Virus record (IMG/VR): IMGVR_UViG_3300046519_000102
Span: 1 to 39,532 of that record
Source of the DNA: a virus
Reading direction: 5' to 3' (one strand)
DNA: 39,532 bases
Under the pieces are notes generated by a model. The model was given only the letters and a program-made list of their open reading frames with translations. It was not told the DNA's origin and did not search any database. How positions within the stretch are numbered: position 1 is the stretch's first letter; each line of letters opens with the position of its first letter. Shown here piece by piece: positions 1,943-39,104 of the stretch. Position numbers and translations under genes: made by a program.

Positions 1943-2719
1943 TTACCAAAGAACGGATGACCAGAAGACTCGACCCAGAACCACAATGCTTTGTTCCAGC
2001 ATTTCCTGTGCGGTGTATTCCTCATCAGCATGCTCTTCACGATTGAAGCTGCGCATTCTGATTCCACCACCTGGCAGTCGATAGAGCGTTTTAACCCGGA
2101 GCTGTCCGCCATGATCAATGGCGTACATTTTTCCATCAGTCACCGATGTGGTTCCTTGGTCCACACCTACTGTGCAGCCGTTCGGTAGGACCGGCTCCAT
2201 GCTATTGCCACTTACGGTTACACAGACAGCGTCAGAAGGCTGAACTCCCTGTTTTCGCATCGTTATCTTGCCAAGGCGCAGCTTTTGTTTGTGCGACTGC
2301 TGAACAGCTGTGCGGCCCTGTCCTGCGGACAACTCTACTTCCTTGAGGAATGGCACGTAGACCTCGTCGTCATCGAGTGGAGTGTCATCGTCCCACACCT
2401 CAACAGGGCCGAGAAACTCGGCGTTAGACAATTCGCGACGCAAACCACTGCCGCCCGTCGTCATTTTCGCAATTTCTTCTGACAGTCGCTCACTGAAGTC
2501 TGCGACCTCAATGCCAAGAATCCTGGCAAAGGCCGCCGCGACCGGTGCGTTTAGCGGATTCACGCCGTTGAGATAGTGGCTGACGGAGCTCTGATTCATA
2601 TCCAGAGCGTGCGCCAGCTTCTCCTGAGTCAAGCCCAAGGCGGATTTTCTAGAATTAAAGAGGGCCTTCAACCGAAGGCATTCCTCTTTCTTGTCTGGCG
2701 GTAAAGGTCTTTTGCTCAT
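1943..2719 (-). CDS. cI: CI-type prophage repressor (HTH + S24/LexA protease)
   Basis: 258 aa, normal for the family. Residues about 13-75 are an XRE-type helix-turn-helix (GLTQEKLAHAL then SSVSHYLNG). The C-terminal half is an S24/LexA-like self-cleavage domain with an Ala132-Gly133 scissile bond (ELSAGQG), nucleophile Ser173 in SGNSMEP and general base Lys210 in LRVKTL. RecA-stimulated self-cleavage and prophage induction follow from the family. It is divergent from cro across a three-operator region. There is no usable ribosome site ahead of the ATG; the predicted promoter would start transcription at the A of AUG, giving a leaderless message as for lambda cI made from pRM. Confidence 0.95.
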   Translation of the reverse strand: MSKRPLPPDKKEECLRLKALFNSRKSALGLTQEKLAHALDMNQSSVSHYLNGVNPLNAPVAAAFARILGIEVADFSERLSEEIAKMTTGGSGLRRELSNAEFLGPVEVWDDDTPLDDDEVYVPFLKEVELSAGQGRTAVQQSHKQKLRLGKITMRKQGVQPSDAVCVTVSGNSMEPVLPNGCTVGVDQGTTSVTDGKMYAIDHGGQLRVKTLYRLPGGGIRMRSFNREEHADEEYTAQEMLEQSIVVLGRVFWSSVLW

Positions 2720-15008: not shown

Positions 15009-15995
15009 ATGAGCTTGTTTATTCACCGTGCGCTGGGCCATTTCCTGATGAACGAAGCCGGGGCCGATGGTGGCGACGGCGGTGGTGCGCTGGACATCAA
15101 TACCGGCGCTGCGGCCTTTGCCGCCTTGCTGGACCCGCCGAAAGCAGCCGAACACGAAACATCAGAAGAACACCAAGAGCAGGCTGAGCCAGAAGTCGAG
15201 GCTGAGCTTGAGCAGGAAGAACACAGCGAGTCCGAGGGAGAGCCTCAAACCTTCACCGTCAAGATTGATGGCAAGGAGGTCGAGGTTTCGCTCGATGAGC
15301 TGAAAAATGGCTACCAGCGTCAGTCTGATTACACCAAGAAGACGATGGAAGCCGCCGAGCAACGCAAAGCAGCAGACGCCGAGACCCAGAGGGCCCAGCA
15401 GGAGCGCATCGAGTACAACTCGAAGCTTGAACGCATGGCCGTCCAGCTCGAAGGCGTGTTGGAACAACAAAGTCAAATCGACTGGGCCGCGCTGATCGAG
15501 TCAGATCCGGTGGAGTACCTGAAGCAGCAGCAACTCTTTCAACAGAGACAAGCGCTGTATCAGCAAAACATGCAGGAACGCCAACAACTCGCCCAGCAGT
15601 TCCAGAACGAACAGGCACAAGCCCACCAAAGTTACCTGGCCCAGCAGCAGGAAGACCTCCTCGCCAAGCTCCCGGACTGGAAAGACGATGCCAAGGCTGC
15701 AGCCGAAAAAACCGCTATCTCGAAGTTCCTGCAAGAGCAGGGTTTCGAGGCTGAGGACATTTCGTCCATTGCCGACCACCGCCATGTGCTCATTGCACGC
15801 AAGGCGATGCTCTACGACCAACTGATGGCCAATGCCAAGTTGCAAGCCAAGAAGGTCCAGGAAGCGCCCCAGCGGGTGGTCAAGCCAGGCGTTACGTCAA
15901 ACGGCACTCCCGACGGTCGCTCTACCGCTGCAAAGCGGCATGAGAAGAACGGGACGGTCGAGACAGGCGCCGCCGTATTCGCCCAATTCCTTTGA
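15009..15995 (+). CDS. Scaffolding protein
   Basis: 328 aa, encoded directly before the major capsid protein. The N-terminal quarter is very acidic (EHETSEEHQEQAEPEVEAEL in outline). Next is a FTVKIDGKEVEVSLDELKNGY segment with a beta motif seen in many phage scaffolds, and then long Gln/Glu/Ala-rich coiled coil (residues about 105-230). The C-terminus is basic (KKVQEAPQRVVKPG), as needed to bind the capsid protein. It directs procapsid assembly and leaves before DNA fills the head. Position and composition support this more than any one motif. Confidence 0.88.
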   Translation: MSLFIHRALGHFLMNEAGADGGDGGGALDINTGAAAFAALLDPPKAAEHETSEEHQEQAEPEVEAELEQEEHSESEGEPQTFTVKIDGKEVEVSLDELKNGYQRQSDYTKKTMEAAEQRKAADAETQRAQQERIEYNSKLERMAVQLEGVLEQQSQIDWAALIESDPVEYLKQQQLFQQRQALYQQNMQERQQLAQQFQNEQAQAHQSYLAQQQEDLLAKLPDWKDDAKAAAEKTAISKFLQEQGFEAEDISSIADHRHVLIARKAMLYDQLMANAKLQAKKVQEAPQRVVKPGVTSNGTPDGRSTAAKRHEKNGTVETGAAVFAQFL

Positions 15996-25481: not shown

Positions 25482-25509
25482 AAGCCCCGCCAAGTGTGGG
25501 GCTTTTTAT
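25482..25509 (+). terminator. Terminator after the ejection block
   Basis: AGCCCC (25483-25488), a 9-base loop, GGGGCT (25498-25503), then TTTTATT. It separates the ejection genes from the tail fibre gene. Confidence 0.8.
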
Positions 25510-25522
25510 TGGGATGAAAAAC

Positions 25523-26398
25523 ATGCCACTTCCTTCTTCGATCAATGACCTTTCGACCACGGCTGGCAGCAACAGCCCGGCTGGGTCGGAATCTCCATCG
25601 CTCATTGATGACTACCTGCGCACATACGCATCATACATCGCCCTGTTGCGGGATGGCGGGATCAATAAGGCCTCCACTACCATCGGTACCGCGTCCAATG
25701 TGAAAATGACGCTGGCCGCGGCAGCAGCCTCCGCCACCCTCACGGCGACTGAAATCATCGTCGGCTCGGCGCTCGGCGGCTCAACGTACATCCTGGCCAA
25801 CTTCAGCAAAACCATCAACCTGGCCACGACTGGCGCGGGCGGCATGGACACCGGCACCGCTCCGGTCAACGGATTTGTGGCGGTTTACGCGATCTACAAC
25901 CTTAGCTCGGGTGTTTCGGCGCTGCTTGCCACGAATGCCACCTCCGTTACTCCCGGGGAAGTGTATGGCGGCGCGAACATGCCGAGCGGGTACATCGCCT
26001 CAGCACTGGTCGCCGTATGGCCTACCAACGGCAGTAGCCAGTTCAAGATCGGCAGCCTGCGCGGGCGGCGTGTTTCCATCCCAGGCCTCAACGTGCTGAC
26101 GTCGGCGACCGTTCTTTCCACGGCGACCCTGAGCATTGCGTCTACGGTGCCTAGAAACGCGACCAGCATTTCCGGCGGCATCGGCATCACCAACAGCGGC
26201 GCCACCTCAACCATGTCCTTATCGGTGATGTCTGATGTGCTGAGCACGGGCCTCCAGGTGGTCTCTGGGAACAACATCGTCAACGTGGCGTGCAACTTCG
26301 ATCTTGATTTGAGCGCCATGCAATCGATGGTTTATACGAGTGCAAACACCACCGGCACGCCAGGGTTTAGTATTTTTATTTCCGGGTATCGATTCTAA
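25523..26398 (+). CDS. Tail fibre or receptor-binding protein
   Basis: 291 aa. The start ATG at 25523 gives MPLPSSINDLSTTAGSNSPA, a common phage fibre N-terminus followed by SPSLIDDYLRTYASYIALLRD; an ATG three codons earlier is possible. The body is Ser/Thr/Gly-rich beta structure with SATVLSTATLSIASTVPRNAT, and it ends in a compact domain, FSIFISGYRF. It is fairly short for a fibre. A fibre-assembly-like gene and an SGNH hydrolase follow it, so this is the adsorption module. Confidence 0.85.
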   Translation: MPLPSSINDLSTTAGSNSPAGSESPSLIDDYLRTYASYIALLRDGGINKASTTIGTASNVKMTLAAAAASATLTATEIIVGSALGGSTYILANFSKTINLATTGAGGMDTGTAPVNGFVAVYAIYNLSSGVSALLATNATSVTPGEVYGGANMPSGYIASALVAVWPTNGSSQFKIGSLRGRRVSIPGLNVLTSATVLSTATLSIASTVPRNATSISGGIGITNSGATSTMSLSVMSDVLSTGLQVVSGNNIVNVACNFDLDLSAMQSMVYTSANTTGTPGFSIFISGYRF

Positions 26399-26412: not shown

Positions 26413-26583
26413 ATGAAATATGTGCAGCTAGACGCAAAGAAACAGAAAGTCTTGTCGGTGTTCAGTAGTGTGCAAGACATAGAAAAGTGGCCGGACTTTG
26501 CTGAAGTGGAAGACGACGATCCGCGCTATCTCGATTTTATCGATTCGCTGAGTGAATATTTGCGCAACCAACTTACAGCGTGA
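26413..26583 (+). CDS. Small tail fibre assembly-like protein
   Basis: 56 aa. Reads MKYVQLDAKKQKVLSVFSSV, then QDIEKWPDFAEVEDDDPRYL and DFIDSLSEYLRNQL. An acidic stretch followed by DPRYLxF is typical of phage tail fibre assembly chaperones and of small proteins next to fibres. It lies 14 bp after the fibre gene. A chaperone role is inferred. GC is lower here than in the head genes, as usual for swapped adsorption modules. Confidence 0.75.
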   Translation: MKYVQLDAKKQKVLSVFSSVQDIEKWPDFAEVEDDDPRYLDFIDSLSEYLRNQLTA

Positions 26584-26593
26584 AGGGACAGAC

Positions 26594-27295
26594 ATGGCGA
26601 AAATAGTTTTCCTTGGTGATAGCGTCACGAAAGCAACTGACTATGGCAGTGTTACCTCAGTTGACTGTTTTGCCTTCAAGGTCGGCACCCTGGCCGGGTA
26701 TGCCCCCACTGACATCATCAACGCCGGCGTTTCGTCCGACACCTCCGCCGGCATGCTGGCCAGGATCACGACCGACGTGCTGGACAAGGCCCCGGCTGTC
26801 TGCGTCGTCATGGCCCTGGTGAATGACGCGGTGCAGGACGTGCCGATTGCAGACTACAAGGAAAACCTCCGAGCGATCGCCAGTCGCCTGATCGTGTGCG
26901 GCATCAAGGTCGTCTTCTTATCGCCTCCGCTCGACCGTGGCACTCCAGCCTTCCAAGACAAGTGCAGAGCGTATTTGGAAGCATTGGAGGCGGTGAGCAT
27001 GGAGTTTTCCACGCCATACATTGATTGTTATCGTGAATATGCATTCATGTATCTGTATGGGGTCAACGAATTTTATGCCTGCTACGTGGACAATATCCAT
27101 CAAACGAAAGTTGGTCATGACAAAGTCACATCGATTCTAACGCGTGGTACACGCATCAAGGCCTTCTATCCAAATGGCGCAACTCCAGTCACACAAGATC
27201 TAAAATCGCTTGTGTTGTCGATTTCAGATTACTTGCTGAGCTGCCGTACATCATCGCTATTGAATAATGTCGCCAATGAGAGAGCCAAGTTTTAA
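26594..27295 (+). CDS. SGNH/GDSL hydrolase in the tail module
   Basis: 233 aa. The ATG at 26594 has AAGGGA upstream. Block I is IVFLGDS with Ser10 as nucleophile, block III has Asn77 (ALVND, where Gly is replaced by Val), and block V is DNIH with Asp166 and His169. This is a complete Ser-Asp-His esterase. Placed right after the fibre, it probably deacetylates surface polysaccharide (O-antigen or exopolysaccharide) during adsorption. It is clearly paralogous to the early-region gene at 31513-32091 and has a C-terminal extension of about 40 residues that the other lacks. Confidence 0.88.
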   Translation: MAKIVFLGDSVTKATDYGSVTSVDCFAFKVGTLAGYAPTDIINAGVSSDTSAGMLARITTDVLDKAPAVCVVMALVNDAVQDVPIADYKENLRAIASRLIVCGIKVVFLSPPLDRGTPAFQDKCRAYLEALEAVSMEFSTPYIDCYREYAFMYLYGVNEFYACYVDNIHQTKVGHDKVTSILTRGTRIKAFYPNGATPVTQDLKSLVLSISDYLLSCRTSSLLNNVANERAKF

Positions 27296-27309
27296 TATCG
27301 GAGTTTGAT

Positions 27310-27858
27310 ATGCCAATCACCGCGCAGCAGCTTTTGCAGATCCTCCCGAACGCCGGCAAACAAGCCGGCGTTTTTGCCTCTGCGCTGAACCTGGCCATGG
27401 ACCGGTACCAGATCAACACTCGGCTGCGCATGGCAGCCTTCATTGCCCAAGTCGGCCATGAGTCGGGGCAGTTCCGCTATGTGAAGGAGCTCGGCGGCGA
27501 CCAGTACCTGAGCAAATACGACACCGGGCCGCTGGCCAAGCGACTGGGCAATACTCCAGAAGCGGATGGCGACGGAATTCGATACAAGGGCCGTGGACTT
27601 TTGCAAGTAACTGGCCACGACAACTACCTGGCCTGTAGCAAGGCGCTGTTCGGTGATGACCGGCTGTTGCGCACGCCTGAACTGCTCGAGCAGGCCGAGT
27701 GGGCGGCGAAGTCGGCGGCGTGGTTCTGGAATTCTCGGAACCTGAACGCCTTGGCGGATGCCGGCGACTTCGTTGGCATCACCAAGCGCATCAACGGCGG
27801 GACAAATGGCCTGGCCGAGCGCCAAGCCTTCTATGCTGCAGCGCTGAAGGTGCTTTAG
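27310..27858 (+). CDS. Endolysin, glycoside hydrolase family 19
   Basis: 182 aa. Catalytic Glu51 lies in QVGHESGQF and the second acid is Glu60. The GH19 signature RYKGRGLLQVTGHDNY is at 91-106, and the C-terminus has ITKRINGGTNGLAERQAFY. This is the chitinase-like lysozyme type used by many Pseudomonas phages to cut peptidoglycan. There is no signal peptide, so release needs the holin. It is coupled to the spanin genes (stop and next start are adjacent). Confidence 0.95.
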   Translation: MPITAQQLLQILPNAGKQAGVFASALNLAMDRYQINTRLRMAAFIAQVGHESGQFRYVKELGGDQYLSKYDTGPLAKRLGNTPEADGDGIRYKGRGLLQVTGHDNYLACSKALFGDDRLLRTPELLEQAEWAAKSAAWFWNSRNLNALADAGDFVGITKRINGGTNGLAERQAFYAAALKVL

Positions 27859-28368
27859 ATGAATGCCATCATCCTACGGCTCCTTCCTTATATAGCTGCG
27901 TTGCTGATCGGTGCCGTCGGCGCCTGGATGTGGCAGGCCAACAGCTATGGCCAACAGCTTGCGGTACAGGCACTGCTTCATCAGTCCGACCTGGAAGCCA
28001 TCAGCAATGCCGCAACAGCCAAAATTCGTTCAGATCAGGAAATGCGCCTCGCTCTTGAGCAAAGGCTGTCGGCCAGCGAACAAACCCACTACAAGGAACT
28101 GAGCGATGCTCAAGTCAACCAGAAACGCCTGCGCGATCGCCTTGCTACTGCTGATCTGCGGCTGTCAGTCCTTATCGACGCCGCGGATCCAGCCAGTGGC
28201 AGCGCAGTGCCAACCGGTACCGCAACCGGCGGCTTGGTTCATGGAGGAACGCGCGCCCGACTTGACCCAGCGCATGCTCAACGAATTGTCGCCATTACCG
28301 ACGCCGGCGATCAGGGATTGATCGCGCTGCGTGCGTGTCAAGCTTACGTGCGGGATATCTCGCGCTGA
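27859..28368 (+). CDS. Rz: Inner-membrane spanin (Rz)
   Basis: 169 aa. An N-terminal signal anchor (LLPYIAALLIGAVGAWMW, residues 8-25) precedes a periplasmic coiled coil (residues 30-105, EAISNAATAKIRSDQEM and onward). It carries the outer-membrane partner in a second frame inside it. The two together span the periplasm and fuse inner and outer membranes in the last step of lysis. It begins directly after the endolysin stop. Confidence 0.88.
   Translation: MNAIILRLLPYIAALLIGAVGAWMWQANSYGQQLAVQALLHQSDLEAISNAATAKIRSDQEMRLALEQRLSASEQTHYKELSDAQVNQKRLRDRLATADLRLSVLIDAADPASGSAVPTGTATGGLVHGGTRARLDPAHAQRIVAITDAGDQGLIALRACQAYVRDISR
28106..28321 (+). CDS. Rz1: Outer-membrane spanin lipoprotein (Rz1), nested in Rz
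   Basis: 71 aa, wholly inside Rz in the +1 frame. Signal peptide CAIALLLLICGC, with lipobox cysteine at residue 20, then a Pro/Gln-rich mature part (PVAAQCQPVPQPAAWF). Lipidation and sorting to the outer membrane follow from the lipobox. Nested Rz1 is the lambda arrangement. The ATG has AAGGAACTGAGCG upstream, a fair ribosome site. Confidence 0.88.
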   Translation: MLKSTRNACAIALLLLICGCQSLSTPRIQPVAAQCQPVPQPAAWFMEERAPDLTQRMLNELSPLPTPAIRD

Positions 28369-28379
28369 TTCGCTGCTGT

Positions 28380-28739
28380 TTACTGTGATGCGGTAAGCGG
28401 GCGAGGTGCATCCTTGCATACTTCGGAAAATAGCGCGGATGGCACAAAAGTTTCGCCCATTCTCGAAAAGTATTTATCCTGCTGCTCAGGATTGAAGCCG
28501 GTGGGGCTGGCGCTCGACCCGAGAAAACGAACCGTTGAATCAGCGCAATTAAATTCGCGTTTTACGTACGTCTGGTAAACACCAAAATCCCTTTTGGTGA
28601 CGACTATACGGGTTTGACCGGTTTGGCTGATTGAAATAGTCACGTCTTGGCTGAGCGGCGTTGAAGGCAAGATAGCCAAGTCAGCGCCGTGGGCGGCTGA
28701 ACAAGAAAATACGGCGCACGCGATAAGGAAGCGACTCAT
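28380..28739 (-). CDS. Secreted moron-like protein
   Basis: 119 aa. I chose the ATG at 28739 because GGAAGG lies 7 bases upstream. A signal peptide (MSRFLIACAVFSCSAAHG) with Ala-x-Gly-Ala cleavage is followed by a small beta-rich domain with one likely disulfide (FNCADS and SEVCKD). It is on the opposite strand to the late genes, between lysis and integrase, the usual place for lysogenic-conversion genes. Base composition is lower in GC than its neighbours. I do not recognise the family; a periplasmic host-altering protein is a reasonable guess. Confidence 0.8.
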   Translation of the reverse strand: MSRFLIACAVFSCSAAHGADLAILPSTPLSQDVTISISQTGQTRIVVTKRDFGVYQTYVKREFNCADSTVRFLGSSASPTGFNPEQQDKYFSRMGETFVPSALFSEVCKDAPRPLTASQ

Positions 28740-28827
28740 TGGAAACCTTCCATGGATATAATGGTGGGGCTGATGAGAATAGTCCTTTTCGTGCATTGCG
28801 TCGTGACAATTTCAAGATGTGCTTCGG

Positions 28828-30018
28828 TTAAATCCAGCCACTCCAGTCCTTTGGCGTCACAAGATCGGCCCACTCCTGCATCATTCCGCGGCGCTGCTCC
28901 AGATAGGCCGCATGGTTGTACACGTCGCGGATGACGCTGCTGTCGGCGTGAGCCAACTGGCGTTCGATCCAATCGCGGTTGTACCCGCGGCCATTCATCT
29001 CAGTGGAGAACAGGTGCCGGAAGCCGTGGGGCGATTGTTTGCCGGTGAGCCCGCACGAATCCATGACGTTGTTCGCGTAGTTGGTGCCGATCGGCGCCGT
29101 CACGATGTTGCGGTTCCTGAAAACGTAGCGCTGGCCGCCGGTGATTGGCAGCATGCTTTTCAACAGGTCCACTGCCTGTCGCGACAGCGGTACCGAATGG
29201 TCCCTGCGCATCTTCATTTTGGCAGCCGGGGTCGTCCAGATCGCGGCGTCCAGGTCGATCTCCGACCATTCAGCATGCCGCACTTCGCCCGGACGCGAGG
29301 CGGTGTAGATCATCAGCATCAGCGCCGTCTTCAGTTGATGGCCAGCCGCACAATCCCGGATCGCCGCCATGGTGGTCGGCATTTGGTCAAATGGCAGGAA
29401 CGGGTGCGGCTTGTGCTGGCCCATCTTCTCGGTGACGGCGTGCATCTCGGCGGTGGGGTTCGCCTCGATCAGTCCGGTGGCAATCGCATAGCTGAACACC
29501 TGACCCATGCGCTGGCGCACCTTCACGGCCGTGCCAACCGATCCGCGCTTCTCCACGCGCCGAATCAAACCGATGACGTCGGCCCGCTTGAGGCTGTCAA
29601 TCTGCCGGTCTCCAAAGACTGGTAGTACATCCAGCTCCATGGCGTTGCTGATCACCCGGTAGGTGCCCGGAGAAATGCTTCCCTTCCTGAAAGCCAGCCA
29701 TTCGTCATAGACACGACGGAAGGTGCGGCCACCGGCCTCGATCATCTCGGCCTTCTTCTCCCTCCTCGAGTGGCGCGGATCTACTCCGTTCGCCACGTCC
29801 TCCCGCGCCTCGTCTCTGCGCGCGCGCGCTTCCTTCAGGCCCGTCTCCGGGTAAGTCCCAAACGAGATCCGCACCTGCTTGCCGAGCCAGGTGAATCGAA
29901 AGTGCCAACTCTTGACCCCACTGGCCGCCACATAGAGTGACAGGCCCAGGGCGTCGGGGATGGTGTACGCCTTGTCCTTCGGCTTTGCCTGCTTGGCTGC
30001 GGTGTCCGTAAGTGCCAC
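28828..30018 (-). CDS. int: Tyrosine integrase, P4-like
   Basis: 396 aa from a GTG at 30018, which gives the family-typical MALTDTAAKQAKPKDK start and has GAGGA 7 bases upstream; an ATG ten codons earlier has none. Residues 1-95 are the P4-type arm-binding domain (DALGLSLYV, WHFRFTWLGKQVRISFGTYP). Catalytic residues: Arg242 (TASRPGEVRH), Lys267 or 269, His331 and Arg334 (HGFRH), His357 (LAHAD) and Tyr367 (VYNHA). It carries out site-specific integration and excision. P4-type integrases usually target tRNA genes; the target here is not visible. Confidence 0.95.
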   Translation of the reverse strand: MALTDTAAKQAKPKDKAYTIPDALGLSLYVAASGVKSWHFRFTWLGKQVRISFGTYPETGLKEARARRDEAREDVANGVDPRHSRREKKAEMIEAGGRTFRRVYDEWLAFRKGSISPGTYRVISNAMELDVLPVFGDRQIDSLKRADVIGLIRRVEKRGSVGTAVKVRQRMGQVFSYAIATGLIEANPTAEMHAVTEKMGQHKPHPFLPFDQMPTTMAAIRDCAAGHQLKTALMLMIYTASRPGEVRHAEWSEIDLDAAIWTTPAAKMKMRRDHSVPLSRQAVDLLKSMLPITGGQRYVFRNRNIVTAPIGTNYANNVMDSCGLTGKQSPHGFRHLFSTEMNGRGYNRDWIERQLAHADSSVIRDVYNHAAYLEQRRGMMQEWADLVTPKDWSGWI

Positions 30019-30044
30019 TAGTACATCCTCGCGCTGGTCATTTT

Positions 30045-30283
30045 TCAATGTACTGGATGATGTACTAACTCGTCGCCGCTGGGAAGGTTCGAGGTGGTAC
30101 TCGGTGATACGCTTGATGCGCTGGAAATGCCGGTTTTAAGGGGTTTTTGGTACGGGGAGGTTTTTGGCGGGAGGCTACCGTGGAGGCTTTGAAAATTTCC
30201 ACGGTATGACCTGTAGGGCTTGAATTTAGAGGGTTTTAAGCGGGGATTGGTTTCTGGTGTACTGATCAATGTACTGATTGATC
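30045..30283. promoter_or_regulatory. Intergenic region between int and xis: candidate arm sites or attP
   Basis: TGTACT occurs as two pairs, at 30049 and 30061 and at 30258 and 30270. Both pairs have a 12-bp offset and flank about 200 bp, and single GGTAC elements lie between them. This looks like integrase arm or excisionase sites around an attachment core. I cannot identify the core without the host sequence. An 88-codon minus-strand frame here looks non-coding. The right pair overlaps the end of the AlpA-like gene. Confidence 0.45.
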
Positions 30284-30481
30284 GTTGCTGGGGGTCAAAT
30301 CGAGCATCCATTGAGCGATTGCCGACTGGCGCCAGGCCACCGAGTTGGGGCCTATTCTAACCTGTTTTGGGAAGGTTCCCTCCCGGATGCGACGATAAAC
30401 CGTGTTACGGCCGAGGCCGGTGGTGTGCAGCACCTCGTCGAGGCGCAGGAAACGATCAATGCTTTCGATGGTTGTCTTCAT
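30266..30481 (-). CDS. AlpA-family regulator or excisionase
   Basis: 71 aa. MKTTIESIDRFLRLDEVLHT, then TGLGRNTVYRRIREGTFPKQ and WRQSAIAQWM, is the AlpA/MerR-like winged-helix pattern. Such proteins act as recombination directionality factors or activate int. It lies immediately upstream of int on the same strand, separated by the putative arm-site region. A good GAGGGTTGAG sequence precedes its start. Confidence 0.9.
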   Translation of the reverse strand: MKTTIESIDRFLRLDEVLHTTGLGRNTVYRRIREGTFPKQVRIGPNSVAWRQSAIAQWMLDLTPSNDQSVH

Positions 30482-30482
30482 C

Positions 30483-30950
30483 TCAACCCTCCTTGCTCAT
30501 AGCTCTGTCAATCTCGGCGTCCCAGTCTTTGGGGAGCACGTTACTTTCCAGGCGCTCAAGTAGTCCGCCATCTTCCCATGTCGCCTTGAGGTGCTGGTAG
30601 CGCGCGACATCCTTCCCAGCGCTCGCCGCTCCATCCCTGAACCCGTCAGCCGCAGCGTTGGCCATGTCGACGGCGGTGTAGAGCGGAGTCGGGCCGCCGC
30701 GCAGGTGCTCGATCATCTGCGCCTGCTGGGCTACCGTGGCTTTCAGGCCGATCATCTCCCAGTCCTGCCGGGTAAGGCTGGTCAGCTTTTCTTTAGCGCT
30801 GAGTGGCGGCACTGGCCCACCAGTCCCTGGCATTCCTTTGCAGCCGTATTTAGTTAACGCATAGTCGGCCAGCGCTGAGATCTGATTCCCACAGGCCGCG
30901 CACTTGTACCAGTCGAGGTCGATTCGCTTCCAATCGTGTGCAGTACTCAT
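30483..30950 (-). CDS. Early hypothetical protein with CxxC
   Basis: 155 aa. The ATG at 30950 has GGAG 6 bases upstream. WYKCAACGNQI near residue 20 could bind zinc with a later Cys (YGCKG). The rest is helical: PPLSAKEKLTSLTRQDWEMI, TVAQQAQMIEHLRGG, ANAAADGFRDGAASAGKD. It is the last gene of the leftward operon before xis. Function unknown. Confidence 0.75.
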   Translation of the reverse strand: MSTAHDWKRIDLDWYKCAACGNQISALADYALTKYGCKGMPGTGGPVPPLSAKEKLTSLTRQDWEMIGLKATVAQQAQMIEHLRGGPTPLYTAVDMANAAADGFRDGAASAGKDVARYQHLKATWEDGGLLERLESNVLPKDWDAEIDRAMSKEG

Positions 30951-31159
30951 ATTTTTCTCCAAGCTGCAGCCGACACCCGCGCCCAGCGCTCTTGGGTGAC
31001 GATGATGAAATTGCGAATCCCGGTCATGACCTTGTGCATCTCGCCGTCGAACTCGACGAACTGGCCGGTCTTGCGGTGTTCTGGCTGGCGGTCGATGACG
31101 TCGAGCAGCTTGCCTACTCCGCCGTCCTCGCGCCGTTCGTGAATGTCATATGCGGCCAT
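30947..31159 (-). CDS. Small hypothetical early protein
   Basis: 70 aa. GAGGTG lies ahead of the ATG at 31159. The sequence VGKLLDVIDRQPEHRKTGQF, then EMHKVMTGIRNFIIVTQERW, is mixed alpha/beta and soluble. Unknown function. It overlaps its right neighbour by 14 bases and its left neighbour by 4. Confidence 0.72.
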   Translation of the reverse strand: MAAYDIHERREDGGVGKLLDVIDRQPEHRKTGQFVEFDGEMHKVMTGIRNFIIVTQERWARVSAAAWRKI

Positions 31160-31352
31160 GGCGCACCTCGTCGATCTTCATTTTGATCCCGCGTGCGTAG
31201 TCCACCGGCCAAGTGTCTAGCCGTTGTTCCAGGGTGCAGGAGACGGTTTCAATAGGCCCGCGCTCGTCGTATGCGCTGCGTGGCGTGCGACTGGCGTCGA
31301 ACAGCATCTGCGCCGCGAACCGGGCGCCTTCTCGGATTTCAAGTTGAGACAT
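31146..31352 (-). CDS. Small hypothetical early protein
   Basis: 68 aa. The start is MSQLEIREGARFAAQMLFDA at 31352, with GGAG 7 bases upstream; the open frame reaches 31397 without a ribosome site. It has one helix and then a DERGPIETVSCTLEQRLDTW region and a basic end. Not recognised. Confidence 0.72.
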   Translation of the reverse strand: MSQLEIREGARFAAQMLFDASRTPRSAYDERGPIETVSCTLEQRLDTWPVDYARGIKMKIDEVRHGRI

Positions 31353-31425
31353 GGGGATGCTCCGGCCGCGCGGTGCGGCAAGCAGGGGAGTAGTCAATTC
31401 GGGGTTACAACTGGAGGGATGAAGC

Positions 31426-31467
31426 TCAGCGGCAGTACACGCAGTAGAACCAGGCGAGGGCGATCAT
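31426..31467 (-). CDS. Possible 13-aa peptide with strong ribosome site
   Basis: A perfect AAGGAG 8 bases before an ATG opens a frame of 13 codons (MIALAWFYCVYCR), very hydrophobic and aromatic. It could be a micro-membrane peptide or an accident. The rest of the 160-bp gap between 31352 and 31513 shows nothing else I can support. Confidence 0.3.
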   Translation of the reverse strand: MIALAWFYCVYCR

Positions 31468-31512
31468 TGATTCATCTCCTTAACTTTTGTCCATGCATGG
31501 GTATGTTGTTTT

Positions 31513-32091
31513 TCATTTCAGGAACGCCAGCTTATTTATTGGCCGAGTGCAGAACTCGGTGCAGAACGCATGGCCGGGGGCGTTGAGGTGGATGCTGTCG
31601 ACGTACAGGGGCAGGTACTGTGCACGGATGGACTTGTAGACCATCTCTCGGTAGAAATCGACGTACCCCAGCCCGTACTGCGCCACAACTTCCTCGATGG
31701 CCTGAAGGTACGCGTCCCACCCCACGAAGTTGGCCAAATCACCCCGCCGCATGTTGGATGAGATGAGGGTCAGCTTGATGCCGTGCACCTGGAGCCTGGA
31801 AGCAATGGTCATCAGGGTGGACTTGAACTCTGCCACCGGCACGCCCAGCACATAGTCGTTTATGCCTATCATCAAGGCGCATACGTCTGGGAAGTGGGAA
31901 ATCACGTCAGCGGTAAGCCTGCTGTTCACCCCCGCCGCCGTGTCACTGCTCTTGCCGGCGTTGATGATGTTGGCCGTGGCGTATCCGCAAGAAATACCAA
32001 TGCAGTACGCGAATGTTTCTGTCGGCAACACCCCGTAGTCTGTGGCCTTGGTGATGCTGTCTCCGGCAAAAACGATCTTGTCATCGCTCAT
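31513..32091 (-). CDS. SGNH/GDSL hydrolase in the early region
   Basis: 192 aa. GGAG lies 8 bases upstream of the ATG. Block I is IVFAGDS with Ser12, block III is GIND with Asn78, block V is DSIH with Asp165 and His168: a complete SGNH esterase. It shares long matching stretches with the tail gene at 26594 (TKATDYG, IINAG, SSDT, IASRL). The two are on opposite strands and in different programmes. No signal peptide, so it acts in the cytoplasm or leaves at lysis. It may modify nascent polysaccharide or be a spare copy for recombination with the tail gene. Confidence 0.88.
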   Translation of the reverse strand: MSDDKIVFAGDSITKATDYGVLPTETFAYCIGISCGYATANIINAGKSSDTAAGVNSRLTADVISHFPDVCALMIGINDYVLGVPVAEFKSTLMTIASRLQVHGIKLTLISSNMRRGDLANFVGWDAYLQAIEEVVAQYGLGYVDFYREMVYKSIRAQYLPLYVDSIHLNAPGHAFCTEFCTRPINKLAFLK

Positions 32092-32123
32092 TGATTCAGC
32101 TCCTTATCGTGATGGTCACTCAT
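32088..32123 (-). CDS. Possible 11-aa linking ORF before the early SGNH gene
   Basis: An ATG at 32123 overlaps the stop of the upstream gene (ATGA), and its own TGA overlaps the SGNH start (ATGA). The peptide is MSDHHDKELNQ, and it contains the SGNH ribosome site. Such a chain could couple translation of the two genes. It may be chance. Confidence 0.25.
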   Translation of the reverse strand: MSDHHDKELNQ

Positions 32124-32506
32124 AAAAAATCCTCGCTATCGGCTGGCTTGCCGGTGCGTCTGATGAACTCCATGCGTTTTGCCCTTGCGAGCATGTAGCA
32201 CTGACCACAAGGCGCCGCGCTTCCATTCTTCAGGGCCTTGGGGGTGCGTAAGGTGTAGGTTCCGCAAGAGCATCGACAAACCCATCGGCGTAGCGTGGCG
32301 GATAACCCGACGACCAGCAAACGGCCGACACGCAAACCAGATAGGTCCTTGAAGCCAGGGCATTCAAGGATCGATGAATCGATTTCGCGCATCGGCAAAG
32401 GAAGCGGACTGTCGACTGAGCTGTTTGTTAGGTACTCGTGATGCTCGCCCTGGGACATCACTCGACCTGCTGTGGAATTTATTGGTATCTCATGCCCCAC
32501 TTTCAT
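32120..32506 (-). CDS. Zinc-finger phage early protein
   Basis: 128 aa, with an ATG at 32506 and a weak AAGAAA upstream. After a poorly ordered 45 residues comes a small domain typical of phage early proteins: GFKDLSGLRVGRLLVVGLSA, then CRCSCG (Cys77, 79, 81) and CGQC (Cys100, 103). It should hold one zinc. Related proteins read ...WVVRCxCG...RCxxC. Likely a nucleic-acid-binding or host-takeover protein. Confidence 0.78.
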   Translation of the reverse strand: MKVGHEIPINSTAGRVMSQGEHHEYLTNSSVDSPLPLPMREIDSSILECPGFKDLSGLRVGRLLVVGLSATLRRWVCRCSCGTYTLRTPKALKNGSAAPCGQCYMLARAKRMEFIRRTGKPADSEDFL

Positions 32507-33030
32507 GGCGTTTTCTTCGAAAGGTCGCAATCGCATGGCCCCAGCAGTTCAGGAACTCCGCGATTATTCGTCGAGCAGTCAGATGCATGGCCTTGGTAAT
32601 TCAGCTCCTTGACCTTGTCGAGGCAGGCGCGGGCTTGCCAACCAGACCACATTTCTCGCACTTCGCTATCAAGATAAGATCCACTGGCAGACCTTAAAAA
32701 CCGGACGCCTGTGCGATTTCCCATGATTCGGTCGCGGTAGTGATTTTCGAACTCCGCACGCTCATCAACCGCTACCGGCGCGGGCAGCGAGGTGTAGAGC
32801 GGAATTGAATCACCAAGGTCAAACCCAGTTACATAGACCATCCCGCTTGGCGTCAATTCCTCCAGTTTTTTTGGATTGATCCACGCCGCCGGCCCTTGTC
32901 GCTCAGCGATTGGGGCTGAGAGAATTGCACGAAGCTGATTAGCCGCATTGCCACCAACGCCCCAGCAACTTATGGTGTCTTGGTACAGAAGCCTTGCCAG
33001 CTCCCGCGAAATCTCAATTTTCCCGCTCAT
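32503..33030 (-). CDS. Phage early hypothetical protein
   Basis: 175 aa. It is a patchwork of short motifs common in gammaproteobacterial phages: ISRELARLLYQDT, PAAWINPKKLEELTPSGM, DSIPLYTSLPAP, then MWSGWQARACLDKV. I know this composition from many early operons but not a function. It overlaps genes at both ends by 4 bp. The motif order suggests modular recombination between phages. Confidence 0.78.
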   Translation of the reverse strand: MSGKIEISRELARLLYQDTISCWGVGGNAANQLRAILSAPIAERQGPAAWINPKKLEELTPSGMVYVTGFDLGDSIPLYTSLPAPVAVDERAEFENHYRDRIMGNRTGVRFLRSASGSYLDSEVREMWSGWQARACLDKVKELNYQGHASDCSTNNRGVPELLGPCDCDLSKKTP

Positions 33031-33395
33031 TCGCTTGCTCCCGATTCGGTTGGTTTGAGTGCTGCGCGCAGGTTCATGCCGACATCAGGAAAGTGATCCC
33101 AGCCGCTTTCGGCGTATTCCATGAACTCTGTTGCCGCCTTGACGAGAGTCGCATTCCGCTGCTCGGCGGCTGTCAGTGCTTCACCGGCATTAATCGCCTG
33201 AATTCCGCGAAGGCGCTCTTGTTCCTTCCATGCGCTTGCGAGTTGCTTGGCTGCGGCCAGCTCTTCCCGCAAAGCAGCCAGCTCGGACTGGGCGTCGTCG
33301 AAGTTGGCTGACTGCACCCACAGCCCATTTTCCTTTGGCATCATGCATGGGAATCCGTGCACCAGCATGCAATTGAACTTCTCTACTTCACTCAT
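33027..33395 (-). CDS. Coiled-coil phage early protein
   Basis: 122 aa. It begins MSEVEKFNCMLVHGFPCMMP, then has a long helix (FDDAQSELAALREELAAAKQ and onward to about residue 80), then EFMEYAESGWDHFPDVGMNL. The central coiled coil should form dimers. Typical small early protein of phages with DUF551-like neighbours; function unknown. Confidence 0.75.
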   Translation of the reverse strand: MSEVEKFNCMLVHGFPCMMPKENGLWVQSANFDDAQSELAALREELAAAKQLASAWKEQERLRGIQAINAGEALTAAEQRNATLVKAATEFMEYAESGWDHFPDVGMNLRAALKPTESGASE

Positions 33396-34911: not shown

Positions 34912-35562
34912 TTAATGCTGAGGCTTTGGAAAGAAGGCCGGATGAGGCCCTGCTTTACGTTTCGGAAAGTCGATGCCGAACTTGTCCAGGAGCCTTGTGA
35001 AGGTTTTGAACGATACGCCGAGCTGAACGATGGTCTGGTGCCGCGATAGCCCTTCCTCCATTAACGCCTTGATCCGCTCGGCGTCTTTGGCGTCTTTTGC
35101 TTCATCCGGCACATAGCGCTTCAGGTTTTCCCTGCCGGTGTGGACTGCAGGCTGAAACTTGAATCCGGCCTCGACGGCGATCTTTTGCAGGGTGCGCAGA
35201 CAAATCCCGGTGGCTTCCACTGCCTGGGCGTATGTCATGGTTTCGGCAAGCGTGCGGATTCGGTCGACCAACTCTGCTCGTTCTCTGGCCCGGGCCACGG
35301 CACGCTCTTCACGCTCAATGTCGCGCTGGGTGAGCTTGTCGACCTTGCGCGGTACCGGCTCACTCATGGGCTTGGCCTTGATCGGCGTCTTCTTGCGCCG
35401 CGGCGGCTCATGCCTTGCCGGTGGAGGAACAAAGCTCGGCCCACGCAATACCTCAATAGTCCCTCCTTTACTCAAGAAGGCCTCTTGGAGCAGGGCCAGT
35501 TCATGGCGTTGCGGGTCGAGCTCCTTGACCATGTTCAGATCGTTGCTGATGTATGCGCTCAT
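34912..35562 (-). CDS. DNA-binding-like early protein with basic linker
   Basis: 216 aa. A Pro/Lys/Arg-rich linker (ARHEPPRRKKTPIKAKP) joins an N-terminal helix to a charged coiled coil (RDIEREERAVARARERAELV), then two helix-turn-helix-like units: MTYAQAVEATGICLRTLQKI and LSRHQTIVQLGVSFKTFTRL. Likely a DNA-binding protein. It overlaps the exonuclease stop/start region by 4 bp, so it belongs to the recombination operon. Confidence 0.75.
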   Translation of the reverse strand: MSAYISNDLNMVKELDPQRHELALLQEAFLSKGGTIEVLRGPSFVPPPARHEPPRRKKTPIKAKPMSEPVPRKVDKLTQRDIEREERAVARARERAELVDRIRTLAETMTYAQAVEATGICLRTLQKIAVEAGFKFQPAVHTGRENLKRYVPDEAKDAKDAERIKALMEEGLSRHQTIVQLGVSFKTFTRLLDKFGIDFPKRKAGPHPAFFPKPQH

Positions 35563-36206
35563 GCTGCATGACTCCTCATCCGGCCTCGCATTTCCTGTTC
35601 GAGTTCGGCCAGTTCTTCCAGGAAGGCCTTGATTTCTGCTTCCATCTCGGCGATGCGCTTTTCGTCGCGCCCGAAGCGGAAACAGGCGTACTGCAGTTCT
35701 TCCGGCATGCGATCGTCGAAGCTGACGAAATCAACCCAGGCACGCCCGGTGCAGGCCATCTGGGCCAGCATCTGCCACTCGTATTGGCTGTCGTGCCGGC
35801 CTGACTGGATCACGTAGATGTGGGTCGCGGTGTTAGGACATTTGCACTCAATCAAACCCGTGTCGCCAACAAGTCCATCAGGCGACGCGATGAAGCTGTC
35901 GATCGTCGAATGCGAGAAACAACCGGTTTCCATAACCATCAGGCCTGTATCAATCTCGTAAGCAGCGCGAGCAAGTGGCTCGAGCTCGACACCGCGTTGG
36001 ACTGCCAAGTTTCTTGAGAGATCTACACCTGATGAGTTTCCAGTAAGCCGCTCGCACAGCAGCTCCATCATGTACGTTTTTCTGGTAGCAGATGGAGCGC
36101 TCCCGCGGCCGCTAGCCATGACATTTTTTACTCGGCTGCCACTAACTTTTCCAAGTCTGAACTGGTGCCACTCAGGGCTGCCTTGGACAAATTTATGCTC
36201 CGCCAT
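35559..36206 (-). CDS. YqaJ-type viral exonuclease
   Basis: 215 aa. The ATG at 36206 has AAGGAA upstream; the frame is open to 36281 but overlaps the neighbour. WHQFRLGKVSGSRV at the start, LAVQRGVELEPLARAAYE (Glu75), SPDG (Asp110) and IECKCP (Glu120, Lys122) are the lambda exonuclease/YqaJ active-site motifs. It should degrade 5' ends to leave single strands for the annealing protein encoded upstream. Together they form a Red/RecET-like pair. Confidence 0.92.
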   Translation of the reverse strand: MAEHKFVQGSPEWHQFRLGKVSGSRVKNVMASGRGSAPSATRKTYMMELLCERLTGNSSGVDLSRNLAVQRGVELEPLARAAYEIDTGLMVMETGCFSHSTIDSFIASPDGLVGDTGLIECKCPNTATHIYVIQSGRHDSQYEWQMLAQMACTGRAWVDFVSFDDRMPEELQYACFRFGRDEKRIAEMEAEIKAFLEELAELEQEMRGRMRSHAA

Positions 36207-36660
36207 TTTGATATTCCTTCTCAGCCATATCGCGGTACTGGATAGCGTCATCAATAGATTTGAACCGGCGGCTTGCAACAATTAACCCAGCCCTTCTAAT
36301 TCGCACGCGCCAGCAGGTGTAGTTGTAGCCGCGAATCACCCTGGTTTCTTGAGCGATATTTCTATTGCCTGATGTGTTATTCGCGTAATCCCGCTTATTC
36401 AGGCTTTGCGCCAAGCGCGTAGCCCATATGCAGTTTTCTGGAGAGTAGCCAGCGTCGTTATTCTTCCTTTCAAGAGTCATGCTCCGATCCGGCCGCGGCC
36501 CCATATCGGCAAGAAAATCAGAAAACGAATTGCGCCAGCGATCGCAGACTGTAATGCCTCGGCCACCATAGTTGTGGTAGGCATGGTGTTTCTCACGATG
36601 GCACCGCCTTTTCATGTCGCTCCAGACATACATCAGCCTGGTCCGCTCAAGCTTGTCCAT
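36193..36660 (-). CDS. HNH endonuclease with AP2-like DNA-binding domain
   Basis: 155 aa. The N-terminal half has the phage HNH pattern: CHREKHHAYHNYGGRGITVC, SFSDFLADMG, MTLERKNNDAGYSPENCIWA. The C-terminal half (residues 98-150) reads WRVRIRRAGLIVASRRFKSI and DDAIQYRD, like an AP2 domain. This is the layout of mobile homing-type endonucleases. It sits exactly between the annealing protein and exonuclease genes, overlapping both by 14 bp, and is visibly richer in A+T. Probably a selfish gene that inserted into the recombination operon. Confidence 0.88.
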   Translation of the reverse strand: MDKLERTRLMYVWSDMKRRCHREKHHAYHNYGGRGITVCDRWRNSFSDFLADMGPRPDRSMTLERKNNDAGYSPENCIWATRLAQSLNKRDYANNTSGNRNIAQETRVIRGYNYTCWRVRIRRAGLIVASRRFKSIDDAIQYRDMAEKEYQNGGA

Positions 36661-37387
36661 CTGGCACCTCCTCGAACTCTACGTCGACTGGCTCGGACAG
36701 CTCTTTCTTACGCTCGTCCTTAGCCTTGGTGAGTGCAGCGCGCTCACTCGGCAGATCCTTCCACGCCGCCGTGAAGGCCGCCTGCAGCTCTTCCATCGAC
36801 TGAGCATTACGAATGGTTTCGATGGCTGGTCCGGCGTCAGCAGAAGGCGCTGAGACGTCGTTGGTGACGATCCGCTCGGCCTCGTCCTGGTCGTAGATGC
36901 CGGCGAACCCGAATGCCAGGCGCGCGCACTGGATCATGGCCTTGTGGCGCAACATGCGGCGCGGGTGGGACTGCCATGGCTGGGTGCCGCGCTTGCATTC
37001 AGCCATGTACTCGGTTGCGCTGATCGCGTGACCACGGTCCTTGCGGTAGATCTTGCAGGTGCACTCGGTGCCATCCTTGTCCATCGAGAACTCCATGCCG
37101 TCGAATGCCGGGTTCTCGTTGATGATGCGAGCCCAACCGTCCACGCCGACTACGGGGACGATGCCGCCTTTGTCCGGGAAGGCGTAGATCTCCTTCGTCC
37201 ATGGATTCAGGCCGTACTGGTCTGCCACGATCATCAGCGCCTGCATCTGGGCGTCGGTCACGTTGCCCTTGAACGCTGTGGCCTTGAGGGTCGCCAGCAT
37301 CTCGCCAGGGTCAACGCCGAAGCGATCGGCCATGCGTAGCGCTAGGCTTTTTGGTTTCAGGTTTACAACTGCCGTTGGTGCAGACAT
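36647..37387 (-). CDS. bet: Single-strand annealing recombinase, Bet/RecT-like
   Basis: 246 aa. The ATG at 37387 has GGGGAG upstream. FKGNVTDAQMQALMIVADQY, LNPWTKEIYAFPDKGG, VPVVGVDGWARIINENP, KDRGHAISATEYMAECKR and PWQSHPRRMLRHKAMIQCAR are the lambda Bet family core. The acidic C-terminus (EPVDVEFEEVPDG) is typical. It anneals complementary single strands made by the exonuclease. Confidence 0.94.
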   Translation of the reverse strand: MSAPTAVVNLKPKSLALRMADRFGVDPGEMLATLKATAFKGNVTDAQMQALMIVADQYGLNPWTKEIYAFPDKGGIVPVVGVDGWARIINENPAFDGMEFSMDKDGTECTCKIYRKDRGHAISATEYMAECKRGTQPWQSHPRRMLRHKAMIQCARLAFGFAGIYDQDEAERIVTNDVSAPSADAGPAIETIRNAQSMEELQAAFTAAWKDLPSERAALTKAKDERKKELSEPVDVEFEEVPDGQA

Positions 37388-37446
37388 GACGGTTCTCCCC
37401 GCCATGCAGGCGGCGTATGAGTTCGAGTTATTGGATGGGGATGGGC

Positions 37447-38682: not shown

Positions 38683-39104
38683 AACTCCGCGTCCTCGGCC
38701 TGGGCCTTGAGCGCGTCGTCCGCGAGTGGTTCGAGCAGGGATTCGGCGATTTCCCAGAGCTTGCCCATGGGATGGCTGGAGTTTCCGAGCAGTTCGGCGC
38801 TTGCCACCTTATCGGCGTGCCCGCTAAGTGCTGCGATGACCAAGTAGCCAAGGGATGGGGTAGGGATTTCGCAGTCGGCGAGGCGTTTGTTAACGAATTC
38901 ATCGACCGCCAAGCCGAATTGGTGAAAGGTCACACCCTGCGGCGCGCGCATCCGGCGCTGGAACTTCACGTCATAGCCAAACCGCACCAGCATCTCGGCG
39001 GCGCCATAAATCCACTCGGCCCGCGCAATTTCATGGGGGCTTTCGCTCACTGGAGGCGGTAGACGGTTGTCGAATTCACGTTGAGCAAGTGCTATTGCGT
39101 TCAT
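38679..39104 (-). CDS. Phage early protein, 141 aa
   Basis: The opening MNAIALAQREFDNRLPPPVS is familiar from Pseudomonas phage early proteins. A helical body follows (ARAEWIYGAAEMLVRFGYDV, FHQFGLAVDEFVNKRL, TPSLGYLVIAALSGHADKV) with an acidic end. Function unknown. A CTGGAGGCGACC sequence provides the ribosome site. Confidence 0.8.
   Translation of the reverse strand: MNAIALAQREFDNRLPPPVSESPHEIARAEWIYGAAEMLVRFGYDVKFQRRMRAPQGVTFHQFGLAVDEFVNKRLADCEIPTPSLGYLVIAALSGHADKVASAELLGNSSHPMGKLWEIAESLLEPLADDALKAQAEDAEL

Follow-up and report, generated by a model that had tools for sequence, protein, structure and literature searches.

Results

The window, by which we mean the whole 39,532-nucleotide (nt) stretch of viral DNA analyzed here (IMG/VR record IMGVR_UViG_3300046519_000102), encodes two SGNH hydrolases, one downstream of the tail fibre on the plus strand and the other on the minus strand between the RecT/YqaJ recombination block and the integrase. 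These were the only two matches in the whole record, and the pair is unusual among the phages examined. A sequence-only reading of this DNA had placed one gene in the tail module and one in an early operon (recT-exo-...-int by our annotation), and both open reading frames lie where it put them.

26594..27295, plus strand: tail-module SGNH hydrolase, 233 amino acids, open reading frame intact (homology, Pfam, structure model)
Catalytic codons of the tail copy, plus strand: Ser10, 26621-26623; Asn77, 26822-26824; Asp166, 27089-27091; His169, 27098-27100
27203..27286, plus strand: C-terminal linker and two-helix extension of the tail copy, residues ~204-231 (sequence comparison, model)
31513..32091, minus strand: early-operon SGNH hydrolase, 192 amino acids, open reading frame intact (homology, Pfam, structure model)
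Catalytic codons of the early copy, minus strand: Ser12, 32056-32058; Asn78, 31858-31860; Asp165, 31597-31599; His168, 31588-31590

The two proteins shared 44% identity over 189 amino acids (E 3e-48), and both scored above the curated Pfam cut-off for Lipase_GDSL_2 (PF13472), with 54 and 56 bits against a threshold of 32.9. The alignment retained the Ser of GDS, the Asn and the Asp-x-x-His at blocks I, III and V, together with the block II Gly, in both copies, which bears out the earlier description of a homologous pair with intact Ser, Asn and Asp-His motifs. The TKATDYG, IINAG, SSDT and IASRL blocks cited in that description also fell at equivalent positions. In block III (GxND) the early copy has the canonical GIND, while the tail copy has LVND, in which the Gly is lost and the Asn kept.

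We compared the window with 11 kin phages, whose portals were 78-94% identical to its own, and neither SGNH copy was present in any of them. Two of these kin, G405 and G413, have near-identical flanks around the early copy (integrase 97-98% identical) and lack the genes at 31513-32536, so that they represent an empty site with a single joint sequence. In G405 the integrase is 98% identical and an excisionase-like gene 100% identical to that of the window. The single joint of G405 (15897-15927) is a 31-nt block that matches window positions 32599-32629 exactly, and the right-hand G405 match, which ends at 15923 (window 31497), runs into this same block. The window carries two imperfect joint copies flanking the insert and a third, core copy at the start codon of the SGNH gene.

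31471..32629, minus strand: inserted segment, ~1.1 kb between joint copies, comprising the gene at 32120-32536 and the SGNH gene; missing in G405 and G413
32120..32536, minus strand: co-inserted gene with weak PHROG similarity to an HNH-endonuclease family (phrog_18493, 9e-26; phrog_374, 1e-8)
32599..32629, minus strand: left joint copy, GCCTGCCTCGACAAGGTCAAGGAGCTGAAT, the same over 31 nt as the single joint in G405 and G413
32088..32108, minus strand: joint core, GATAAGGAGCTGAATCAATGA, at the start of the early SGNH gene, giving it a Shine-Dalgarno sequence and start codon (ATGA overlap)
31464..31484, minus strand: right joint copy, GTTAAGGAGATGAATCAATGA, a short way past the SGNH gene and running into sequence shared with kin

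This comparison of empty and filled sites is the basis on which we propose exchange at the joint, and from it the early copy appears to be cargo in a variable slot of the recombination and integration operon.

We searched all viral contigs for the exact 18-nt core of the joint. The conserved stop/start joint, GCCTGCCTCGACAAGGTCAAGGAGCTGAATCAATGA, occurred in 80 viral contigs besides the window, with about 39 downstream gene families. In all, 82 stretches were counted; the analysis of the joint covered loci L108-L187, with the two stretches outside this range left out. The 80 contigs formed 73 nucleotide clusters, and clustering of 79 joints gave 39 downstream and 11 upstream clusters. The joint is 31-37 nt long and encodes the end of one protein (CLDKVKELNQ) followed, through the ATGA overlap, by the start of the next. 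The 18 nt upstream of the core, which lay outside the search pattern, differed from the consensus at three or fewer positions in 63 of 82 places, including the window's two. Conservation was high between -19 and +17 nt, did not differ among the three codon positions, and dropped to about 0.4 outside these limits; such even conservation with sharp edges indicates shared DNA identity rather than protein constraint. The joint thus behaves as a boundary sequence, in that the same short sequence stands at a gene border with unrelated neighbours. It was absent from the 50,697 phage records and the 398 bacterial genomes searched. A second joint at 33027-33055 on the minus strand, in which the stop after KPTESGASE overlaps ATGA, showed the same behaviour in 42 places among the kin and the L109-L187 loci, with 22 downstream clusters.

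To place the two hydrolases among their relatives, we drew on searches of several sequence sets. Single-protein searches of IMG/VR returned no close relative, and alignment-based searches were needed to find the family. No match better than 27-29% was found in the phage records searched, and the plasmids searched held no relative of the early copy. Scans of viral contigs identified family members in six other phage lineages (L003, L005, L009/L010, L011, L017 and L191/L192). In all six a tail fibre precedes the gene; a small gene often separates the two, and a lysis gene often comes next. This position is shared by 26594-27295 and not by 31513-32091, which leaves the early copy as the sole lineage member found away from a tail module. 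In one of these lineages, L005, whose phage has baseplate genes of Mu/P2-like type, the tail fibre and a GH19 endolysin are separated by a tandem pair of different SGNH-type hydrolase genes (L005:10001-11447).

Each window protein was at least as similar to a protein of another phage as to its partner, with identities of 50% between the tail copy and the partial L011 protein, 46% between the early copy and that of L017, and 44% between the two copies. When codon-aligned, the two genes shared 51% nucleotide identity, with a longest exact run of 17 nt, and identity was 57%, 61% and 35% at codon positions 1, 2 and 3. Because of this low identity and short shared run, the copies appear to be old relatives and not the products of a recent duplication. 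The codon-position pattern points to old homologues under protein-level constraint, in a lineage that purifying selection would have shaped over most of its past; the divergence is too deep for an estimate of the ratio of nonsynonymous to synonymous substitution rates (dN/dS).

In a phylogenetic tree, all family members, including both window copies, grouped in one clade that excluded cellular and other phage SGNH proteins (support 92/96), and a second tree recovered the same clade (81/92). The copies therefore did not separate into distant clades, the outcome that would have told against a close pairing, and both fell within a single tail-module clade. A constraint making the two window proteins sisters was not rejected by the approximately unbiased (AU) test (p 0.425, 0.198 and 0.279). 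The pair is homologous, as the sequence-only reading had it, and a simple in-genome duplication is not supported, since each copy is equally or more identical to the protein of another phage.

The structure predicted for the early copy was a three-layer SGNH fold with a mean predicted local distance difference test (pLDDT) score of 88.6. This model had 116 PDB matches at E<=0.001 with template modeling (TM) scores up to 0.8, and the closest folds were acetylxylan esterases, TesA, Axe2 and sialate O-acetylesterase. The tail copy was likewise predicted to adopt the SGNH fold (mean pLDDT 84.3), and its fold matches were phage esterases, the tail spike of phage PP99 included. We infer that both enzymes would hydrolyse acetyl esters on carbohydrates. 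In the model of the early copy beta-strand 1 already starts at residue 6, too close to the N-terminus for a signal peptide to fit. This agrees with the earlier suggestion that the early copy acts inside the cell; the companion suggestion, that it is expressed in the lysogen, was not supported, as discussed below.

The C-terminal extension of the tail copy has similar counterparts in the tail-module relatives L005, L009, L017 and L192; it is missing from the early copy and from L003, and the L011 protein is truncated. No remnant of it was seen 3' of the early copy when three frames were read by eye, and the extension alone used as a query had no match in phage records. We would guess that it has a role in virion assembly.

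The two ends of the record share a repeat of about 127 nt, judged by eye, which makes it likely that the genome is complete. Podovirus-like head and tail genes of this temperate phage occupy the plus strand, and the minus-strand early operon begins near 39104 and extends to the integrase at 28828. Among its other genes are a D12-class DNA adenine methyltransferase and one of excisionase size, the latter named by eye, and its gene order resembles that of the lambda pL operon. The other genes referred to here are as follows.

1943-2719, minus strand: LexA-like repressor, named from sequence by eye
25496..26398, plus strand: tail fibre (PHROG tail fibre match)
26413..26583, plus strand: small gene, 56 amino acids, between the fibre and the SGNH gene
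27310..27858, plus strand: GH19 endolysin, 71% identical to GH19 proteins of Pseudomonas phages
28828..30048, minus strand: tyrosine integrase at the end of the early operon (phrog_1, 2.5e-77; 97-98% identical in G405/G413)
35559-36281, minus strand: YqaJ-type exonuclease, early operon (35559..37405 block)
36647-37405, minus strand: Bet/RecT-type annealing protein, early operon

A small gene also occupies the position equivalent to 26413..26583 in L009/L010, L017 and L192. As to the host, the endolysin sequence points to Pseudomonas and the portal to phages of diverse proteobacteria. Two further minus-strand genes drew our attention. The early gene at 572-1630 encodes a protein with about a dozen STLTGG-type repeats, to which the kin matches were partial, and 28380-28796, a low-GC gene between the lysis genes and the integrase, encodes a small protein with a signal-peptide-like start and has no counterpart among the 11 kin phages.

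In most kin the tail fibre was conserved over its first ~50-70 residues alone, with the remainder exchanged, so the tail copy would have come with the usual exchange of fibres. Only two of 15 kin records held any GDSL hydrolase. In G411 (L095:18454-19137) an SGNH hydrolase with a hydrophobic leader is encoded on the other strand from the tail genes, between the fibre and the endolysin, and G406 (L083:12040-13179) has an acyltransferase-3 gene in the same arrangement, likely a surface-acetylation conversion gene.

Discussion

We think it fairly probable that the early copy is an SGNH gene of a tail-module lineage that was exchanged in at the joint and now serves as an early, soluble, non-virion esterase. 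Both genes would derive from one small lineage of stand-alone SGNH hydrolases kept directly downstream of the tail fibre. The tail copy would deacetylate surface polysaccharide during adsorption. The early copy would have come from the tail module of another phage, an origin suggested by its being the sole member of the lineage found outside one, through homology-directed exchange at the joint; such exchange over short homology would probably have been aided by the annealing protein that the phage itself encodes. In laboratory work, mosaics of this kind are driven by Rad52-like phage recombinases (PMC3945230, PMC2327257). Presumably translated early from the ribosome site of the joint, and by its location cytosolic, the early copy is most likely, judging by sequence and context, a soluble O-acetylesterase of tail origin. 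Its target could be cytosolic or, slightly more likely, polysaccharide at the cell surface or on debris after release by lysis.

Several observations weigh against this explanation. The branching order inside the family clade was without support, whether the truncated L011 protein was included or left out, and the direction of transfer from tail to early operon is read from the distribution of relatives rather than from branching order. L003, a tail-module member, also lacks the C-terminal extension, so its absence from the early copy is not proof of a lost attachment to the virion. Enzyme activity, substrate and early expression are predictions from fold, residues and gene context, and the requirement for an exact 18-nt core favours recent copies of the joint.

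A serious rival, possible although we rate it clearly lower, is that the early copy is neutral cargo, a gene captured at the joint that is intact by chance and has yet to acquire a selected role. Turnover of the slot is fast, with about 39 unrelated gene families at the same joint and other contents in the nearest kin, and no kin phage has the early gene. On the other hand, the catalytic residues were kept in both copies after long divergence, the early copy has a strong ribosome site, and the excess of identity at codon positions 1 and 2 (57% and 61%) over position 3 (35%) argues for purifying selection over most of the history of the lineage. We consider lysogenic conversion improbable. Under this explanation, which the sequence-only reading had raised, the prophage would express the early copy, and the enzyme would remove or prevent O-acetylation of nascent surface polysaccharide, change the serotype and exclude other phages. 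The intact catalytic residues would suit it, and the phage group does seem to handle surface acetylation, with the G406 and G411 genes in the arrangement typical of lysogenic conversion, on the opposite strand between fibre and endolysin. The early copy, by contrast, sits among recombination and integration genes, and by prediction it has neither a promoter of its own nor an export signal or membrane location. A consensus scan found no minus-strand sigma70-like promoter across the early operon, and by the same kind of scan the repressor gene is followed by a terminator-like hairpin of 16 pairs, which separates it from the early operon; these results speak against expression in the lysogen. Serotype conversion is further disfavoured by the lack of a signal peptide, as acylation of lipopolysaccharide, capsule and peptidoglycan occurs largely outside the cytoplasm (PMC9558356). 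Least probable, and quite unlikely in our estimation, is direct duplication of the fibre enzyme within this genome, with the early copy kept as a reservoir of sequence for exchanging fibre enzymes. The AU test did not reject the two copies as sisters (p 0.20-0.43), but each is matched at equal or higher identity by a protein of another phage, the extension of the tail copy is not present in the early copy, and genes with 51% nucleotide identity and a 17-nt longest run are too diverged, and that run too short, for routine exchange.

Tail-associated SGNH enzymes and module boundary sequences are already known. SGNH enzymes are common in the receptor-binding proteins of temperate phages, where two were confirmed as esterases (PMC13123978), and the PP99 tail spike deacetylates O-polysaccharide (PMC6989608). 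Escherichia coli phage G7C gp63.1 and the Klebsiella prophage proteins (PMC13123978), as well as Pectobacterium phage PP99 gp55 (PMC6989608), are tied to the tail, as in the window, and acetyl esterase or O-polysaccharide deacetylase activity has been demonstrated for them. They are domains inside large fibres or spikes, while the window has a small stand-alone gene after the fibre and a second copy outside the tail module. The NanS-p O-acetylesterases of Stx-type prophages (PMC8065619) are likewise prophage-encoded carbohydrate O-acetylesterases, which serve the lysogen and occur as several alleles per host. Unlike the early copy they are longer, have a C-terminal lectin-like domain and are transcribed with late genes; the likeness is one of description, and no sequence relation is claimed. 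Among cellular enzymes, TesA and the acetylxylan esterases AlAXEase and Axe2 share the fold and catalytic blocks seen here at only 16-24% identity, and they are not phage genes. Conserved boundary sequences between phage modules (PMC3233612) are, like the joint, short sequences between genes where unrelated modules exchange. In contrast to the boundary sequences summarised there, the stop/start joint also provides a ribosome site and start codon.

The empty site, the filled site and the flanking joint copies together give a before-and-after picture of the entry of an accessory gene into an early operon in natural populations, and the pair offers a testable case of a tail enzyme moved to an intracellular setting. 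More general than the SGNH pair is the cassette joint that carried the early gene, through which an old question, whether targeted boundary sequences are used in phage mosaicism, can be measured directly. These largely uncultivated temperate phages may use at least two stop/start joints, each with an overlapping ATGA and one with a ribosome site, as adaptors by which a captured gene is at once translated in the early operon, and a virion enzyme may thereby have become an intracellular early enzyme; we judge the case for this to be evenly balanced.

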